From the NCBI GenBank assembly GCA_937995645.1, contig CALKJP010000019.1, positions 1 through 40,944 on the forward strand: 40,944 bases of DNA. Direction: 5' to 3'. The translations under genes and the position numbers were made by a program. Below are positions 1,945 through 19,344 of this stretch, piece after piece (within the stretch, counting starts at the first letter, position 1; every line of letters begins with the position of its first letter). The notes under the pieces are model-generated. The model saw only the letters and a program-made list of their open reading frames with translations, was not told the DNA's origin and did not search any database. The DNA is from an uncultured Bacteroidia bacterium (GTDB lineage Bacteria; Bacteroidota; Bacteroidia; JACCXN01).

Positions 1945-2703
1945 TTATTCGTAGTAATAAACACGAATTATGGCGGCATCCTGAAGAAAATCAATTTTAG
2001 TAATGGAGATGCGGTGTATTTTTAATCCTGTTCTGTTTTTTAAATCGGCTATTAATATATCTCTTTTTTCGGGCTGAATAAGTTCAATATTTTCGTAAGT
2101 AATAAGTTTACTGTACTCACGTTTCATTAAAATATTACCATCTAATGCATACACGCTTAATATAATTACTCCGTATATAGCAGCTTGTTCGTAGTATTCT
2201 AACTTAATGGCTCCTATCAATCCAATTGCAATTACTACAAAAAGATAAGTCATATCTTTTGTAGAAATATCTTCGGTGCGATAACGTAGCATAGAGAAAA
2301 TAGCAAATAAGCCAAAAGCTGCACCCATTGATATTTTTATATGATTGAGCAAATAGGTAAGCAGAAAAACAACCATATTAAAAAGGAAGAAAGTAAACAT
2401 AAAATCTTTGTTACCATAATTGGGCAGATAAATTAATCGAAGAATTACTAATAAAGCCAGAATATTTAATGCCATACTGATGAAAAAATTTTTATCAACT
2501 CGAATATCTTCTTTCATTTCATCTCTCTTCTTCTTTTTCTTCTTATCTTTTTCTGCATCTTTAAATTCTGTATTTTCTTCAAAATAGCTTTCTATAGATG
2601 TATTATCATTTTGTGCTAATAGAAATGAATTTGTGTCTGCTTTAACAGGGCTAAAGAATAAGCCGAGAAGCACTATTAAAATTGAGATTATAAACTTATA
2701 CAT
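1945..2703 (-). CDS. DUF4956 domain membrane protein
   Basis: 252 residues. A signal peptide or first helix (1-22) is followed by a charged linker with a lysine run (about 52-60). Hydrophobic helices then lie at about 74-93, 101-120, 127-140, 153-168 and 173-187, ahead of a soluble C-terminal domain. The segment GAAFGLFAIFSMLRYRT (127-143) is the recognisable DUF4956 signature. The function of this family is not established. It overlaps the upstream VTC-domain gene by 8 bp, so the two are probably co-translated. DUF4956 genes recur beside VTC and CotH genes in other bacteria, and a CotH gene is present here on the divergent side. Confidence 0.85.
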   Translation of the reverse strand: MYKFIISILIVLLGLFFSPVKADTNSFLLAQNDNTSIESYFEENTEFKDAEKDKKKKKKRDEMKEDIRVDKNFFISMALNILALLVILRLIYLPNYGNKDFMFTFFLFNMVVFLLTYLLNHIKISMGAAFGLFAIFSMLRYRTEDISTKDMTYLFVVIAIGLIGAIKLEYYEQAAIYGVIILSVYALDGNILMKREYSKLITYENIELIQPEKRDILIADLKNRTGLKIHRISITKIDFLQDAAIIRVYYYE

Positions 2704-3439
2704 AGAAATTAGTTTTAACGATTTTTCTTATTTTGGGTTTAAATAAATTTTGTTTTACAGGTTTTAAAAGAGCCATTCCCAGACAATATTTACTGATAAA
2801 TCCTTCTTTAATACGCATACTTTTTAAAACACTTTCGGCTTTGGTTACCACCGGCAAATTATCTTGTTTTATTTCAACAATAGCAATATTTTCTAACGTT
2901 CTGGAAACTGTGTTATCAACAAATGTCAAATTTAAGTCAACTGTTACGCGCTCCGGTGCTTCTTTGTTTACTAAAGTTATGCGATAATATTCGATATTTA
3001 ATGAATTAATAAGCGGTTTGGAAGATTTGTAAAATTGACTGATAAAATTTTCTTCATTGGGTGTAATGATGCCCGGTGTTGCAACATCAATTCTTTTTTT
3101 AATGGTACGGCCTTTATTGGTTTTTAATTTTATTTCCAGAAAATGAATTCCGCTTTCGAGATAACTTCTAAAACGAATTTTAAAACGATTAAGTTTTTTA
3201 TTATGATGGGCTTTGTACAAGTCAAAATCTGGTGTATCAAAATAATAGGATTTGTATGCGTTTATTCTAACAGCATTTATCTCAAGCACTCTGTAATAGG
3301 ATTTAATTTCTACTAACCAAGTTTCTAATTGCTTAAGAGTAAGCATAAATTTTTTATCTGTGCGACTGAGCAATTTTACATTGTCCATTTCGCTCAGAGA
3401 GATAGGCTCAAACTGCTGGATGATACGTTGAACTGTCAA
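2696..3439 (-). CDS. VTC-domain polyphosphate polymerase-like protein
   Basis: 247 residues, a stand-alone VTC (CYTH-like tunnel) domain without the SPX domain of yeast Vtc4. The charged residues expected to line the tunnel are present: RTDKKF (26-31), Y-FDTP (66-70), K87-x-R89-x-R91, E102-x-K104, R164 with D168, E189-x-K191 and the closing SKY (216-218). In Vtc4 these bind ATP, the growing polyphosphate chain and metal. The sequence therefore supports an intact polyphosphate polymerase fold, though activity is inferred. There is no signal peptide or membrane helix, so it is probably cytoplasmic, perhaps bound to the co-encoded DUF4956 membrane protein. It overlaps the next upstream gene by 4 bp. 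Confidence 0.88.
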   Translation of the reverse strand: MTVQRIIQQFEPISLSEMDNVKLLSRTDKKFMLTLKQLETWLVEIKSYYRVLEINAVRINAYKSYYFDTPDFDLYKAHHNKKLNRFKIRFRSYLESGIHFLEIKLKTNKGRTIKKRIDVATPGIITPNEENFISQFYKSSKPLINSLNIEYYRITLVNKEAPERVTVDLNLTFVDNTVSRTLENIAIVEIKQDNLPVVTKAESVLKSMRIKEGFISKYCLGMALLKPVKQNLFKPKIRKIVKTNFYV

Positions 3440-4002
3440 GGATAAAATTCGTATTCGTACTTTTTGGTTGAAATTAATTTATTGTCGGCATCGTAGGTTT
3501 TCTTTAATGTTCGTAAGCCTTTTGAATCATAATCGTAAGTTGATTTTTCAATCAGCTTTCCCGATCCATCAAAAACCTGCTCTCCTTTTTTTTCACCCGA
3601 ACCGGTATAAGTATATTTTATTTTTTTAAGTAAATTATTTTTGTTATCATAAATAAGCTCTTCGATTATAAGTTTAGCGGCTCCATATTTATATTTATGA
3701 ATTGTTTTAACTTCTCCGTTTTCGTTGTAAATAGTTTCTGATACAATTTCTCCGGTTTTATTGTACTCAAAATCTTTTTTTCGTTTAATTTTTCCATCGT
3801 TATTTCTAACTTCTTCCGAAAGTATATTTCCGTCTTTATTAAACTCTCGTAATTCTAAAACCGTTGATTTTTCGGTAGAATTATCTACAATAATTTCCTT
3901 ATACGTTTTTATATGATATTTTTTTACATCCTTTTTCTTTTGTGCAAAAATTATTATCGGAATTAAAAGCAAAACAGATACTATGTAAAATATGAGCTTC
4001 AT
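3436..4002 (-). CDS. secreted YD-repeat-like protein, function unknown
   Basis: 188 residues. A signal peptide (1-20) is followed by about seven imperfect repeats of roughly 17-22 residues. Each is built around an aromatic/acidic turn such as YNKTGEIV, YNENGEV, YDNKNNLL, FDGSGKLI, YDSKGLR and YDADNKLI. This resembles YD/RHS-type or antitoxin-like beta-repeat proteins. It is much too short to be an Rhs toxin shell and has no toxin domain. It is translationally linked to its neighbours: a 4-bp overlap downstream with the VTC gene and a 1-bp overlap upstream with the lipoprotein gene. It probably acts in the periplasm or on the surface as a partner of this cluster. I do not recognise a specific family. 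Confidence 0.75.
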   Translation of the reverse strand: MKLIFYIVSVLLLIPIIIFAQKKKDVKKYHIKTYKEIIVDNSTEKSTVLELREFNKDGNILSEEVRNNDGKIKRKKDFEYNKTGEIVSETIYNENGEVKTIHKYKYGAAKLIIEELIYDNKNNLLKKIKYTYTGSGEKKGEQVFDGSGKLIEKSTYDYDSKGLRTLKKTYDADNKLISTKKYEYEFYP

Positions 4003-4730
4003 TAATCGGCTATTATTAAATCAGGAATTTCGTACACTTTATTATTTTCTGTAATATTTACTTCGATGATAACAGGTACTTTGCCGGATGTTTGCATGGT
4101 GGTATCATCTGATAATGCATACACTTTATATTTCCCTTTTCGTAAATTATTTAACTGAAATTCTCCATTTAATCCGGTTCTTATTCGTTTGCTTTCGCCA
4201 ATATCTCTGCCATATACAAAAAAAATATCTTCATCGGGTTTATAGTATTGATCTACAACTACTGTGTAAGATGCAGCATATTTTTTATAAAACAATTTTC
4301 CTTTAATTGATGATGATCCGTTATTATCTGCTTCTTCATAAATGTAAAAATCATCAATTGTTATTTCTTGATTGTTTTTAGCGATTTCAACTTCTTTAAC
4401 AATGGCAATACTATTATCATCCGAAAGTGTTTTAGGGTCTAAACTATAGGCGTAAATTTTATACTTTCCTTTACGTAAATATCTGAATTCAAATTCTCCC
4501 TTAGGTCCTGTACGTATATCATTGTCCGGCATATTTTTATCACCATACACTATGTAAATGCGCTTATCAGCCCCTACATCATCAAAAGCATAAGGAACCT
4601 CTGGCGAATGAAAATTTTTAACATATAAAGTACCTTTAATGGTAGCTCCGCCCCCCTCACCCGGCGCTTTTTTGCAGGAAAAAATTAAAATTGAAATTAG
4701 AAAAAAGAAAATTATTATTAATTTATTCAT
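4002..4730 (-). CDS. lipoprotein with two carboxypeptidase-regulatory-like repeats
   Basis: 242 residues. A lipoprotein signal peptide ends in LIFSC with the lipidated cysteine at 19. Two homologous domains follow at about 29-132 and 140-240. Each starts with an IKG(T/K)L strand, has a TG..GEF element and ends in LRKGKYK(I/V)YA (about 85-94 and 186-195). This is the transthyretin-like beta-sandwich pattern found in CarboxypepD_reg-type domains, which are structural or binding modules. It is the first gene of the lipoprotein / YD-repeat / VTC / DUF4956 operon and is divergent from the CotH gene. It is likely anchored in the outer membrane; the ligand is unknown. Confidence 0.8.
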   Translation of the reverse strand: MNKLIIIFFFLISILIFSCKKAPGEGGGATIKGTLYVKNFHSPEVPYAFDDVGADKRIYIVYGDKNMPDNDIRTGPKGEFEFRYLRKGKYKIYAYSLDPKTLSDDNSIAIVKEVEIAKNNQEITIDDFYIYEEADNNGSSSIKGKLFYKKYAASYTVVVDQYYKPDEDIFFVYGRDIGESKRIRTGLNGEFQLNNLRKGKYKVYALSDDTTMQTSGKVPVIIEVNITENNKVYEIPDLIIAD

Positions 4731-4749
4731 TAATTTATTGTTAATTTAA

Positions 4750-4757
4750 CAAAGATA
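4750..4757 (-). promoter_or_regulatory. -7 promoter element TATCTTTG for the lipoprotein-DUF4956 operon
   Basis: The minus-strand bases TATCTTTG match TAnnTTTG exactly and lie 19 bp upstream of the lipoprotein start. No convincing TTG was found at -33. Confidence 0.5.
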
Positions 4758-4805
4758 AAAAATTAATAAGGCATTAGCTAAACGCTCGACTATTTTGCTA
4801 AAATG

Positions 4806-4836
4806 TTGTTTTTTAGGAGCTTTTGTATTAACTTTA
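4806..4836 (+). promoter_or_regulatory. candidate promoter TTG-N20-TAACTTTA before the CotH gene
   Basis: TTG at 4806-4808 and TAACTTTA at 4829-4836 are separated by 20 bp, the spacing known for Bacteroidota promoters. The last base of the -7 box departs from TAnnTTTG. The start codon lies 45 bp downstream. Confidence 0.4.
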
Positions 4837-4881
4837 TCGTAACATACTCTTATATAAAGAATTTGTTTTATATAATACTTT

Positions 4882-7422
4882 ATGAAAAAAAAACTACTTC
4901 TGCTAATTCTTACAATTAGTCTTTCTTTCTATTATTTAAGTGCTCAGGTTGTTATTAATGAATATTCTTGTTCAAATATAAATACTATTGCCGATAGTTT
5001 TGGAGAGTATGAAGATTGGATTGAATTATACAATTCCGGTTCATCAGCCGTAAATCTGCAGGGATATTACTTGAGTGATAATCAAAACAAGCCAGACAAA
5101 TGGACTTTTCCGAATATAAGTATAAATGCCGGTGGCCGATTAATGGTTTTTTGTTCCGGTCGAAATACGGTTACCGGCTCTGCGGTACATACCAACTTTA
5201 AATTAACGCAAACTAAACCCGAACGCATTATATTCTCAAGCCCTACATTACAGGAATTAGAAAATATTTTGTTAGTTCCAACTCAAAAAAATCATTCACG
5301 CGGGAGAACAAATGATGGCGCAGCAACATGGAGTTTATTTACAACACCTACTCCCAATGCTGCCAATGCTAACCCAAAGCAAGAATACGCTACTAAACCG
5401 GTTTTAAGTGTTCAAGCAGGGTTTTATTCCAGCGCACAAACAGTAAGTATTACAAGTCCTGATGCCAATGTAACCATACGATATACTTTAGACGGAACAG
5501 AACCTACGGCTGCTTCTACTGCATATACTGCGCCTTTAAATATAACGCAAACAACCGTTGTAAAAGCAAAAGCATTTAGTGCTAATCCTGATATACCACC
5601 CAGTTTTACCGAAACTAATACCTATTTTATAAATGTTACGCATTCGTTTGCTGTTGTATCCGTTAGCGGAACAAATTTAAACTTACTCTTTGGCGGCAAT
5701 CAAACAGAAAGGGAAGGCTGGTTTGAATATTTCAATGACAGTTTAATTTTTAAATCGGAAGCATCCGGCATGTTTAACAAACATGGAAATGACTCATGGG
5801 CATATCAGCAAAGAGGAGTTGATTTTGTAGCACGCGATCAGTTTGGTGATAATTATGGCATTTTACATAAACTATTTAAAACCAAAAACAGAAAAGAATT
5901 TCAACGATTAATATTAAAAGCTGCTGCAAACGATAACTATCCTTTTGAAACCGGCGGAGCACATATACGAGATTCGTACGTACATCATTTATCACAAACA
6001 GGAAAATTAAATTTAGATGAACGCAGCTGGGCGCCTGTTATACTATACATGAATGGTCAATACTGGGGGGTTTATGATATTCGCGAAAAAGTAGATGATC
6101 ATGATTTTACAGATCACTACTATAATCAAGGGGAATTTGACTTGCAATTTTTAAAAACATGGGGCGCCACATGGTCGGAATATGGAGGAATCCAAGCTCA
6201 AACAGATTGGAATACATTAAGAAACTTTATTACCTCTAACAACATGGCCATACAAGCAAATTTTGACCATGTGGACAGTTTATACAACTGGAAAAGTTTG
6301 GTAGATTATTTTTGCCTAAATTCTTACGTAGTATGTATGGATTGGCTCAACTGGAATACCGCATGGTGGAGAGGCCTAAATCCTAATGGCGACAAAAAGA
6401 AATGGAGATACGTTTTGTGGGATATGGATGCCACATTTGGTCATTATATAAACTATACAGGAATACCCGACCAATCAGCCAATGCCGACCCTTGTAATGT
6501 TGAAAATTTGCCTAATCCCGGAGGGCAAGGTCATACCCAAATTTTAAACGCATTAATGGCCAATCCAACATTTAAGCAATATTACATTAGCCGATACATC
6601 GATTTAGGGAATACCGTATTTTCCTGCACCAATATGCTAAATTTATTGGATAGCATGATAGCTGTAATTGCTCCGGAAATGCCGGGGCAAATAGCAAAAT
6701 GGGGTGGCAGTATGGCGGGATGGCAAAACAATGTACAACAGTTACGAAATTTTATTCAGCAACGTTGTGTTGCTATTTCGCAAGGGATGAACGATTGTTA
6801 CCAAACCACCGGACCTTATGTAGTAAAATTCAATGTTTCACCACCAAATTCAGGAACTATAAAAATCAACTCCATAACACCAACCAATTATGTATTTACA
6901 GGCAATTATTATGGCAACATTCAAACGCTATTGAGAGCTAATCCTTCTCCGGGGTATATTTTTGACAAATGGTTTATTGCAAACAATTCCATTTTACCCT
7001 CCATTTATGATAGCAGTGCTTATGTTACATTTTCACAAGCAGATAGTGTAGTTGCTATTTTTAAATTAATTCAAACTCCGCAAGACAGCATCCCAACACC
7101 TGACCCTGACACAACAGACACAACGGTAGTAACACCCGGAGGGCCGGGTGCAGGAATTTTTGTACCAAATGCATTTTCTCCCAATGGCGATGGAAATAAT
7201 GATATATTAAAGCTTTATGGTGCAAAAATTCAAAGCATAGAATTTTATGTTTATAACCGATGGGGGCAACGCGTATTTGAATCGAAAGAATTAAGTAAAA
7301 CATGGGATGGAACATTTAACGGAGAATTGTTGAATGCCGGGGTTTATCCTTACCTGCTCAGAGTTGTTTTTGAAAATGGCGATAATCTGGAGAAGCGAGG
7401 TAATATAACATTAGTAAGATAA
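4882..7422 (+). CDS. secreted CotH-kinase family protein with lamin-tail, chitobiase-like and T9SS type B sorting domains
   Basis: 846 residues. Domains in order: signal peptide (1-21); lamin-tail domain (about 22-155, INEYSC..DWIELYN); chitobiase/hexosaminidase C-terminal-like beta domain (about 172-250, TIRYTLDGTEPT); CotH kinase domain (about 260-640) with NGQYWGVYDIREK (391-403) and the acidic motif YVLWDMDATFG (510-520); an InlB B-repeat-like stretch (about 645-728, PSPGYIFDKWF); an acidic Pro/Thr linker; and a CHU_C/gliding-type C-terminal domain (about 758-846, FVPNAFSPNGDGNND and YNRWGQRVFE). The last marks export by type IX secretion. CotH in Bacillus is a protein kinase of spore-coat proteins; whether this protein phosphorylates anything is inference. 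It is divergent from the VTC/DUF4956 operon and 9 bp upstream of porP/sprF. Confidence 0.92.
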   Translation: MKKKLLLLILTISLSFYYLSAQVVINEYSCSNINTIADSFGEYEDWIELYNSGSSAVNLQGYYLSDNQNKPDKWTFPNISINAGGRLMVFCSGRNTVTGSAVHTNFKLTQTKPERIIFSSPTLQELENILLVPTQKNHSRGRTNDGAATWSLFTTPTPNAANANPKQEYATKPVLSVQAGFYSSAQTVSITSPDANVTIRYTLDGTEPTAASTAYTAPLNITQTTVVKAKAFSANPDIPPSFTETNTYFINVTHSFAVVSVSGTNLNLLFGGNQTEREGWFEYFNDSLIFKSEASGMFNKHGNDSWAYQQRGVDFVARDQFGDNYGILHKLFKTKNRKEFQRLILKAAANDNYPFETGGAHIRDSYVHHLSQTGKLNLDERSWAPVILYMNGQYWGVYDIREKVDDHDFTDHYYNQGEFDLQFLKTWGATWSEYGGIQAQTDWNTLRNFITSNNMAIQANFDHVDSLYNWKSLVDYFCLNSYVVCMDWLNWNTAWWRGLNPNGDKKKWRYVLWDMDATFGHYINYTGIPDQSANADPCNVENLPNPGGQGHTQILNALMANPTFKQYYISRYIDLGNTVFSCTNMLNLLDSMIAVIAPEMPGQIAKWGGSMAGWQNNVQQLRNFIQQRCVAISQGMNDCYQTTGPYVVKFNVSPPNSGTIKINSITPTNYVFTGNYYGNIQTLLRANPSPGYIFDKWFIANNSILPSIYDSSAYVTFSQADSVVAIFKLIQTPQDSIPTPDPDTTDTTVVTPGGPGAGIFVPNAFSPNGDGNNDILKLYGAKIQSIEFYVYNRWGQRVFESKELSKTWDGTFNGELLNAGVYPYLLRVVFENGDNLEKRGNITLVR

Positions 7423-7431: not shown

Positions 7432-8451
7432 ATGAAAAAAATTATCCCACTTATTTTACTTTTCGCACCTGCATTTTCCATTGCGCAGGACATACATTTT
7501 TCGCAATATTACGAAACCCCATTAATAATTAATCCTGCATCTGCCGGATTTTATGACGGCAGACAAAGAGCTGTTTTAAATTATAAAAATCAATGGCAGG
7601 GAATTCCTAATCCATTTGTTACCATGGCAGCATCGTTTGATATGCCATTGTTTGAAAGCAGCAAACGAAATGCGCATTTAGGAATGGGAATTAACGCTTA
7701 CCGCGATCAGGCAGGCGATGCAAAATTGGGAACTACTCAGATAAACCTATCCATTTCAGGAATTGTAAAATTAAATCCGCAAAATAAAATTTCTGTTGGT
7801 ATGCAAGGAGGCGGAGCGCAGCGCTCCGCCAATTTCAGCAATTTGGAATGGGGGAATCAGTTTAATGGAAGCGGGTTTAATACCGGCATTGCTTCAAATG
7901 AAATGAATACACTCAGTTCATTTTTATATGGTGATTTATCAGCCGGTATCTTTTACGAATTTAGTAATACCGAAAATTCATTTGCAGGTAAAGATGTTTT
8001 TAAGTTTAATTTTGGAATATCTGGTTTTCATTTAAATAAACCTGATTTGAATTTTTATAATGGTGCAAGCGACAAATTACATTCTCGATATGTAGTTCAC
8101 TCTTCTTTACGATACGACATTCCTGAAACGCGATTATCTATTGTACCAATGGCCATGTACGCCATGCAAGGGCCATCGAGTGAATTGCTGGCAAGCATGA
8201 TTTTTAGAATCAGCCTTTCAGAGTCTGGGAAAATAACCACCATATTTAAAGAATCTTCTTTATCATTTGGTTGTGGCATAAGAAGCGGAGATGCCATTAT
8301 TCCGCAAGTAATGCTTGAATTTCATGATTATAGTTTTGGCGTTTCTTACGATGTTAAAGCAGGTTCAAAAGCCTATGGTGTTAATGGAGGGCTTGAAGTA
8401 TTTTTACGCTATACCAACTGGAAAGGACCTCTTTATAAAGGAAAAAAATAA
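7432..8451 (+). CDS. PorP/SprF family type IX secretion system outer membrane protein
   Basis: 339 residues. A signal peptide (1-18) is followed by the family's N-terminal signature DIHFSQYYETPLIINPASAGF and a YKNQW motif. Alternating beta strands fill the rest and the protein ends in an aromatic strand (GGLEVFLRY). PorP/SprF proteins are outer-membrane beta-barrels often encoded next to, and needed for surface attachment of, a cognate protein with a type B C-terminal domain. That is the arrangement here: the CotH protein lies directly upstream with a 9-bp gap. A GC-rich perfect hairpin lies inside the reading frame. Confidence 0.93.
   Translation: MKKIIPLILLFAPAFSIAQDIHFSQYYETPLIINPASAGFYDGRQRAVLNYKNQWQGIPNPFVTMAASFDMPLFESSKRNAHLGMGINAYRDQAGDAKLGTTQINLSISGIVKLNPQNKISVGMQGGGAQRSANFSNLEWGNQFNGSGFNTGIASNEMNTLSSFLYGDLSAGIFYEFSNTENSFAGKDVFKFNFGISGFHLNKPDLNFYNGASDKLHSRYVVHSSLRYDIPETRLSIVPMAMYAMQGPSSELLASMIFRISLSESGKITTIFKESSLSFGCGIRSGDAIIPQVMLEFHDYSFGVSYDVKAGSKAYGVNGGLEVFLRYTNWKGPLYKGKK
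7810..7830. repeat. 21-bp GC-rich perfect palindrome inside porP/sprF
   Basis: Arms GGCGGAGCGC and GCGCTCCGCC pair over 10 bp around a single A. All but three or so bases are G or C, against an AT-rich surrounding gene. It is in frame and encodes part of GGGAQRSAN. No second copy was seen in the window. Confidence 0.75.
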
Positions 8452-17238: not shown

Positions 17239-19344
17239 TTGAACGCTGCATCCTCAAAATCGAAAAAGCAATTAAGAAAAATTGCACTGGTTGGAAATCC
17301 CAACAGCGGCAAATCTACCCTTTTTAATTTACTTACAGGATTAAACCAAAAAGTAGGAAATTTTCCGGGTGTTACAGTAGAGAAAAAAACAGGCAAATGC
17401 CAATTAGATAATGAAGAAATAGAAATTATTGATCTACCTGGAACTTACAGCCTGCATCCTAAATCAATAGATGAAGAAGTTACTCTATCGGTAGTTTGCG
17501 ATCCTGCAAATAAATACTATCCGGATATTACAATTATTGTAGCTGATGCATCTAACTTAAAACGTAATTTATTATTATGTACACAAGTTATAGATTTAAA
17601 GCGACCATGTATTTTGGCGCTAAATATGATGGACCTGGTACGTGAAAATAAAATTGAAATAAATACAGCTTTACTTTCTCAAGAATTAGGCATACCGATT
17701 ATTGCCATGAATGCCCGAAATAACGAAGGAATTAAAGAGTTAAAAAATCTATTGAAAGAAAATATTGCTGCTCCTAATAAATGTTTTTTTGATGTTGCAA
17801 CACTAAATATTAATTTTTTACAAGAATTAAAAGGTTTAATTAAGGTTGAAAACAATTATCTGGCACATTTAATTTTTCTACATCACCATGCAATTCCTTC
17901 TATTGAACACAACAACGAAATAACAGAAAGAATTAAACTTGTTAGCAAAAACGAAAAAATAGATAAAGGACGTTTACAAGCACAGGAAACCATTATACGC
18001 TATAAAAACATCAATAGCATAATACAAACATGTGTAGTTGATGAGCGCAAAATAAAAGCTGATAAATTAACTCAAAAACTAGATGCCATTCTTACCCATA
18101 AAGTTTGGGGATTTGCATCATTTTTAGCATTGCTATTTTTAATCTTTCAGTTTATCTTCAGTTTTTCTGCCTATCCAATGGAATGGATTGAACAAGGATT
18201 TGCTTTACTATCCGATGCTGTAAAAAATCATTTTCCAAAAGGAGCAGTTAACGATTTAGTTACCGAAGGCATCATTTCAGGATTAGGCGGCATTTTTGTA
18301 TTCATCCCTCAAATAGCATTTTTATTTGCATTTATTGCTATACTGGAAGATACAGGCTATATGGCACGTGTAAGTTTTATACTCGATCGCATTATGCGCA
18401 AATTCGGATTAAACGGCCGTTCAGTAATTCCACTCATCAGCGGTGCTGCCTGTGCCGTACCAGCGGTAATGTCAACACGCACTATTTCTAACTGGAAAGA
18501 ACGCATTATTACCATTTTAGTAATTCCGCTTATAAGTTGCTCTGCACGTTTGCCGGTTTATACACTCATAATTGCATTGGTAATTCCACAAAAAAAACTG
18601 TGGGGATTAATCAATTATCAGGGATTGGTTTTATTTAGCTTATATTTAATCGGATTTAGCGCAGCAATTTTTTCAGCATACATTTTTAAGATGATTTTAA
18701 AAAGTAAGGAGCGCAGCTACTTTATTATGGAAATGCCGGTTTACAGAGCACCACGCTGGGGAACCGTTGTTTTAACAATGATTGAAAAAATAAAAGTATT
18801 TTTGTTTGATGTCGGTAAAGTTATTATTTCCATTTCCATAGTTCTTTGGGTATTATCCTCCTATGCCCCTGGTAATAGATTTGAAAAAATTGAAAAAAAA
18901 TATGAAAATTCAGATAATGCTGAAAATATAATTGCATCCGAAAAACTCGAAGCATCTTATGCAGGAATATTTGGGAAGGCTATTGAACCCGTTATTAAAC
19001 CTCTCGGTTTCGACTGGAAAATAGGCATTGCATTAATTACCTCTTTTGCAGCAAGAGAAGTTTTTGTGGGTACCATGGCAACTATTTACAGCGTTGGTAC
19101 AGATGATGAAAGTAGCCTAAGACAAAAAATGCAGCAGGATAAAAATCAAAATGGCGAGAAAATTTACACACTTGCCACGGGAGTTTCGCTCTTATTGTTC
19201 TATGTATTTGCCATGCAGTGCATGAGTACTATTGCTGTTGTTTATCGCGAAAGCGGGCATTGGAAATGGCCACTCATACAATTTTTATACATGGGCGCTT
19301 TGGCCTATTTTAGCAGTTTAATAGCCTATCAGTTGTTAGCCTGA
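17239..19344 (+). CDS. feoB: ferrous iron transporter B
   Basis: 701 residues; the start is TTG (17239-17241), which follows feoA closely and leaves a normal N-terminus. The GTPase domain carries G1 GNPNSGKS (19-26), G3 DLPG (65-68) and G4 NMMD (129-132). After a helical insert the membrane part begins near residue 290, with the conserved GRSVIPLISGAACAVPAVMSTRT segment and an FAAREVFVGTMAT motif near the end. FeoB is the inner-membrane Fe(II) transporter. The stop overlaps the following ATG by 1 bp. I saw no clear Fur-type operator upstream. Confidence 0.97.
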   Translation: MNAASSKSKKQLRKIALVGNPNSGKSTLFNLLTGLNQKVGNFPGVTVEKKTGKCQLDNEEIEIIDLPGTYSLHPKSIDEEVTLSVVCDPANKYYPDITIIVADASNLKRNLLLCTQVIDLKRPCILALNMMDLVRENKIEINTALLSQELGIPIIAMNARNNEGIKELKNLLKENIAAPNKCFFDVATLNINFLQELKGLIKVENNYLAHLIFLHHHAIPSIEHNNEITERIKLVSKNEKIDKGRLQAQETIIRYKNINSIIQTCVVDERKIKADKLTQKLDAILTHKVWGFASFLALLFLIFQFIFSFSAYPMEWIEQGFALLSDAVKNHFPKGAVNDLVTEGIISGLGGIFVFIPQIAFLFAFIAILEDTGYMARVSFILDRIMRKFGLNGRSVIPLISGAACAVPAVMSTRTISNWKERIITILVIPLISCSARLPVYTLIIALVIPQKKLWGLINYQGLVLFSLYLIGFSAAIFSAYIFKMILKSKERSYFIMEMPVYRAPRWGTVVLTMIEKIKVFLFDVGKVIISISIVLWVLSSYAPGNRFEKIEKKYENSDNAENIIASEKLEASYAGIFGKAIEPVIKPLGFDWKIGIALITSFAAREVFVGTMATIYSVGTDDESSLRQKMQQDKNQNGEKIYTLATGVSLLLFYVFAMQCMSTIAVVYRESGHWKWPLIQFLYMGALAYFSSLIAYQLLA

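Follow-up and report, generated by a model that had tools for sequence, protein, structure and literature searches.

A CotH gene divergent from a VTC–DUF4956 operon in an uncultured Bacteroidia bacterium: a candidate envelope module linked to polyphosphate

Genes for CotH, a polyphosphate polymerase (PPP) and DUF4956 (-DUF4832) have been described as accessory genes of Gram-positive Pel loci, and Pel loci carrying this triad occur in streptococci, clostridia and bifidobacteria (PMC7112168). In NELoc-2 of C. perfringens, VTC and CotH co-occur with a membrane protein annotated as tubulin-like (PMC2879425), which we infer to be DUF4956. A Bacteroidota envelope module of this kind is not described in the open-access papers that were searched. 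Here we analyze a stretch of 40,944 nucleotides, in the following termed the window, from an uncultured Bacteroidia bacterium (contig CALKJP010000019.1, assembly GCA_937995645.1), in which the gene for a CotH protein targeted to the type IX secretion system (T9SS) diverges from an operon containing genes for a VTC protein and a DUF4956 membrane protein. The association of VTC, DUF4956 and CotH is real and far beyond chance. Based on sequence, structural models and analogy, we consider the locus to be a copy of an envelope module that is conserved in Bacteroidia and in which polyphosphate would be made, exported and coupled to CotH, and we assign this reading a probability of roughly one half.

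The strongest evidence stems from a phylogenetic profile over 295 genomes of the same class, 143 with and 152 without VTC. DUF4956 is present in 142 of the 143 VTC genomes versus 19 of the 152 lacking VTC, and CotH in 139/143 versus 31/152 (p 5e-47). Pure phylogeny as the source of the VTC/CotH co-occurrence is rejected by a within-family test: in 26 families mixed for VTC, the ratio of genomes with and without CotH is 95:4 when VTC is present and 18:49 when it is absent (Cochran-Mantel-Haenszel p 2e-13), in a table that may miss a few VTC-negative genomes whose family was not printed. Neither is the co-occurrence a by-product of T9SS presence, since SprA is found in 47 of the 49 genomes of the mixed families that lack both VTC and CotH. 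The genome from which the window derives, 86% complete so that an extra copy could be missed, yielded one VTC and one CotH gene, and these two are adjacent. That the three genes are recurrent neighbors had already been stated in a sequence-only reading of the window, which proposed neighborhood counts as a check. The counts have now been made and, together with the profile, the within-family test and the T9SS control, bear the statement out: co-occurrence is conserved in a broad survey and eight tunnel residues of VTC match those of Vtc4. Functional coupling of the polyphosphate module to CotH, demonstrated statistically, is thus very probable, and a joint job of VTC, DUF4956 and CotH at the cell surface is likely.

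In the window, the minus-strand operon is composed of genes for a lipoprotein (4002..4730), a YD/MORN-like repeat protein (3436..4002), VTC (2696..3439) and DUF4956 (1945..2703), and successive genes overlap by 1, 4 and 8 bp as judged from open reading frames (ORFs) and sequence. A divergent intergenic region of 151 bp (4731..4881) separates this operon from the cotH gene on the plus strand (4882..7422), which is followed on the same strand by a gene for a PorP/SprF family type IX secretion membrane protein (7432..8451; PF11751 6.5e-39, TIGR03519 1.1e-50). Pfam and NCBIfam profile scans with curated cut-offs place DUF4956, VTC, CotH, CHU_C and TIGR04131 all above threshold. The divergent cluster therefore exists as proposed from the letters alone, down to the coordinates of its features and the three overlaps.

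The 247-aa VTC protein, whose TTG start overlaps the upstream stop codon, matches its family profile PF09359 with 89.7 bits (cut-off 23, E 2.8e-25). A search of the PDB with the single sequence gave no match, and a profile of 29 VTC relatives found yeast Vtc4 (3g3q, E 2e-14). The AlphaFold2 (AF2) model has a predicted local distance difference test (pLDDT) score of 94.6, and its best Foldseek match is the Vtc4 TTM structure 3g3r (E 9.9e-13, probability 1.00). In the profile alignment, with Vtc4 residues numbered according to the full-length chain 8i6v_E, R89, R91 and E189 of the window protein align with Vtc4 R264, R266 and E426, the positions altered in the catalytically impaired R264A/R266A/E426N form of yeast VTC (PMC9911596), and K30, K104, R153, K191 and K217 align with K200, K281, R361, K428 and K458. 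All eight are invariant among 65 aligned VTC sequences. The earlier description of the tunnel as intact holds for these eight positions but not for Vtc4 K455, which lies in the same loop and is replaced by F214. A Pfam scan detected the VTC domain alone and no SPX domain. Fold and residues support a Vtc4-like polymerase, and synthesis of polyphosphate by this protein is probable. Further TTM relatives, i.e. tripolyphosphate-binding ygiF and AtTTM3, are also among the Foldseek matches. Together with the survival of the operon in genomes without VTC (see below), they would fit a TTM protein acting as tripolyphosphatase or ligand sensor next to a signaling or assembly membrane protein DUF4956, with no polymer involved; this is very unlikely, as Vtc4 polymerase is the closest match in both fold and sequence and the key residue set is conserved.

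An ordinary role of a membrane-anchored VTC in intracellular polyphosphate storage or in phosphate homeostasis, with an indirect link to CotH, agrees with the chemistry of the VTC family, which is polyphosphate synthesis, and with PPK1 being slightly rarer in genomes with VTC (107/143 versus 128/152, p 0.06). It leaves the near-obligate co-occurrence with exported CotH and the lipoprotein, YD and DUF2490 partners unexplained, and we regard it as quite improbable. VTC as a replacement of PPK1 is unsupported, because 107 of the 143 VTC genomes carry both; as PPK1 is also present in the genome of the window, VTC does not appear to be simply a housekeeping polymerase.

The DUF4956 protein (252 aa, PF16316 2.4e-50) is modeled by AF2 with five membrane helices followed by a C-terminal alpha/beta domain (pLDDT 84). 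Across 68 sequences, the loops between helices 1 and 2 and between helices 3 and 4 and the segment following transmembrane helix 5 carry a net positive charge (+1.7, +0.9 and +1.2, respectively), whereas neutral or negative values were obtained for loops 2-3 and 4-5 and for the N-terminal side. Because this pattern favors it, we predict an N-out/C-in topology with a cytoplasmic C-terminal domain. Residues R140, R142 and K149, basic in essentially all relatives, would be located at the cytoplasmic face. The first membrane helix is preceded by a signal-like segment and a lysine-rich linker, which is predicted to be periplasmic and possibly contacts a polyanion. The same N-terminal architecture recurs in DUF4956 relatives, e.g., in loci L129, L135, L151 and L182. 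A profile search with DUF4956 did not find the VTC chains, and a PDB search with the single sequence gave no match. Assignment to a known channel fold was given up, as Foldseek returned weak partial matches alone (MscS, E 0.05), which were not used. A role as a pore may nevertheless be suggested by analogy with the basic residues in the first transmembrane helix of Vtc1/3/4, and the chances that the polymer crosses the membrane through DUF4956 appear evenly balanced.

The 846-aa CotH protein combines LTD (PF00932), CHB_HEX (PF13290), CotH (PF08757, 7.9e-36) and C-terminal T9SS type B domains (CHU_C, PF13585, 1.9e-19; TIGR04131, 5.5e-15, 55.3 bits with a cut-off of 35). As SprA is encoded in the same genome (SprA_N 5e-172) and PorP/SprF adjoins CotH, the T9SS type B sorting domain that had been recognized earlier finds its secretion system. 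The structure of Bacillus CotH, 5jd9, was matched by the CotH profile with an E value of 1e-44. The WDMD motif is indeed intact; its first aspartate is D514, which, like D487, is invariant among 25 CotH proteins. The positions of these two residues and the distance between them fit D228 and D251 of B. subtilis CotH, the numbering of the latter being derived from the 23-residue spacing in 5jd9 and not from a direct alignment. The catalytically inactive form of the B. subtilis protein is D228Q (PMC7821199). Judged by these motifs, the window CotH looks active and T9SS-exported.

The surroundings of VTC were surveyed in two sets. The first comprises 80 regions around VTC matches from the 295-genome sample, with VTC recognized in 78; the second consists of 79 named loci, is biased to relatives of the window VTC and partially overlaps the first. 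VTC is accompanied by DUF4956 in 74/78 and 78/79 cases, by DUF2490 in 50/78 and 64/79, by the lipoprotein in 45/78 and 44/79 and by the YD protein in 30/78 and 30/79, respectively. CotH stands beside VTC in roughly 33-38 of the 78 regions, depending on clustering, and in 31 of the 79 loci. The VTC-DUF4956 pair also occurs in Methanoperedens and in one planctomycete and one Anaerolineae genome. In Bacteroidia the usual order is CotH-lipoprotein-YD-VTC-DUF4956-DUF2490, an arrangement suggestive of envelope-spanning polyphosphate export combined with a surface kinase. DUF2490 matches its own family and weakly an outer-membrane beta-barrel. The window lipoprotein (242 aa, lipobox LIFSC; weak CarboxypepD_reg, fn3_3 and Y_Y_Y matches) appears from its sequence to contain two copies of a beta-sandwich-like domain of about 110 aa behind the lipobox. 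For the YD-repeat protein (188 aa, signal-like N terminus), the gene is present as claimed before, but the label is weakly backed: TIGR01643 matches without any single stretch passing alone, and a relative shows RHS and MORN_2 matches. In L039, L058, L063 and L108, two T9SS-tailed proteins are encoded directly upstream of CotH, one of about 335 aa that gave weak starch-binding matches and one of about 560 aa that is arylsulfotransferase-like.

A second Bacteroidia form, DUF4956-VTC-CotH-Wzy-like-CotH, is found in L035, L047 and L113, and in L035 it is situated near genes for glycosyltransferases and an epimerase. Along with the triad beside Gram-positive Pel loci, this arrangement speaks for a surface-polysaccharide module, in which CotH would phosphorylate or otherwise act on an exported glycan and VTC and DUF4956 would regulate or assist glycan export instead of exporting polyphosphate. 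The window and most loci of the operon type, however, lack a core glycosyltransferase, their conserved neighbors being lipoprotein, YD, DUF2490 and CotH, and a glycan-centered function, while possible, is rather unlikely. Between the glycosyltransferases and DUF4956-VTC-CotH of L035, genes for an AbiEii-type nucleotidyltransferase and a DUF4143 AAA protein are located (4251-7306).

How the window CotH came to lie next to the VTC operon deserves separate consideration. Orthologues of the window type are present in 92 genomes, 88 of which contain DUF4956. Linkage to the VTC/DUF4956 operon was found in 8 genomes from six families, compared with 0.3 expected under random placement in 3.4-Mb genomes. 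In L092, genes for CotH (57% identical), PorP, lipoprotein, VTC and DUF4956 are all oriented in one direction. There, as in 6 of the 7 unlinked orthologues that were checked, PorP follows CotH. That the CotH-PorP pair and the VTC operon of the window are neighbors by accident is in line with most orthologues being unlinked CotH-PorP pairs and with the nearest sister VTC operon (L036) lacking a CotH gene beside it; adjacency of the sole CotH and the sole VTC found in the genome and recurrence of the linkage across families, including L092, render an accident most improbable.

Several observations weigh against a polyphosphate export module in the form proposed here. Window-type CotH is mostly unlinked to VTC in other genomes, so that it is not always operonic with VTC. 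The gene for DUF2490, the usual downstream partner, is missing beside the window copy; three above-cut-off DUF2490 matches exist in the same genome, all on other contigs. The DUF4956 model gave no PDB match in Foldseek at E<0.001 and hence resembles no solved channel. L205, L206 and L210 retain lipoprotein-YD-DUF4956-DUF2490, with VTC not found genome-wide, and the VTC-less operon of L205 (4770-9730) also has CotH. These operons contradict the idea that DUF4956 always needs VTC, and because three checked genomes keep the operon without VTC, polyphosphate made by VTC is not indispensable to the module. In L211 (7864-9611), a DUF4956 gene stands alone and diverges from one whose product barely qualifies for the CotH family (26.4 bits against a cut-off of 23.8), again with no VTC. 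The Methanoperedens genome of L121 departs from the co-occurrence, having the VTC-DUF4956 pair but not a single CotH match. PPK1 was detected in all 19 DUF4956-positive, VTC-negative genomes (one-sided p 0.03 versus genomes with neither), which would be weakly compatible with another source of polyphosphate.

Under our reading of the locus as an export module, VTC would polymerize polyphosphate from ATP in the cytoplasm, as fold and residues indicate, and hand the chain to DUF4956, the five-helix inner-membrane protein whose predicted cytoplasmic mouth carries conserved basic residues. This protein may serve as polymerase anchor and exporter, a counterpart of the membrane channel formed by yeast Vtc1/3/4. 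Handling of the product in the periplasm and at the outer membrane would fall to the lipoprotein and the YD protein, joined in most relatives by the outer-membrane barrel DUF2490. T9SS-delivered CotH would act in the same pathway as a surface kinase on protein or glycan, the coupling resting on the statistics and the chemistry being conjectural. Direct use of the exported polyphosphate by CotH is doubtful, and the same low confidence applies to the idea that extracellular CotH kinases draw phosphate or energy from polyphosphate made by VTC and passed by DUF4956, in place of the ATP lacking outside; if true, it would imply a polyphosphate-powered surface phosphorylation system widespread among bacteria. 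With the three widely distributed families coupled throughout a broad set of genomes, DUF4956 acquires a role that can be tested, and bacterial VTC proteins are placed in a setting other than that of PPK1. The coupling also poses the question of how kinases are powered in the extracellular space with its scarcity of ATP. If polyphosphate is indeed exported, bacteria would possess an equivalent of the VTC machinery of the yeast vacuole.

Downstream of DUF4956 are genes for RbfA and a methyltransferase, which form the immediate flanks of the locus together with PorP and amidohydrolase-like ORFs. An ordinary FeoB ferrous iron transporter is encoded at 17239-19344 and has no relation to the module. 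No pel-like gene is present among the annotated neighbors; a genome-wide search for pel was not made.

When compared with described systems, the locus shares the three core families with the module of Pel loci and VTC and CotH with NELoc-2. It differs from both in being Gram-negative and in comprising a lipoprotein, a YD protein, PorP and a T9SS-sent CotH, with a DUF2490 barrel in relatives. With the yeast VTC complex, made up of the Vtc4 polymerase and the Vtc1/Vtc3 channel (PMC9911596), it has in common the TTM polymerase fold, the catalytic residues and the pairing of the polymerase with a membrane protein bearing conserved basic residues. Unlike the yeast complex, the window system is bacterial and tied to an exported kinase-like CotH, its VTC is devoid of SPX, and its membrane protein is the separate DUF4956, whose fold matches none of the solved VTC chains. 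The spore-coat kinase CotH of Bacillus (PMC7821199; 5jd9) and the window CotH agree in the kinase-like domain, as judged by profile, and in both catalytic aspartates, while the latter has extra LTD, CHB_HEX and T9SS domains and no spore context. The window locus is thus a Gram-negative, T9SS-linked variant of the already published association of CotH, VTC and DUF4956.

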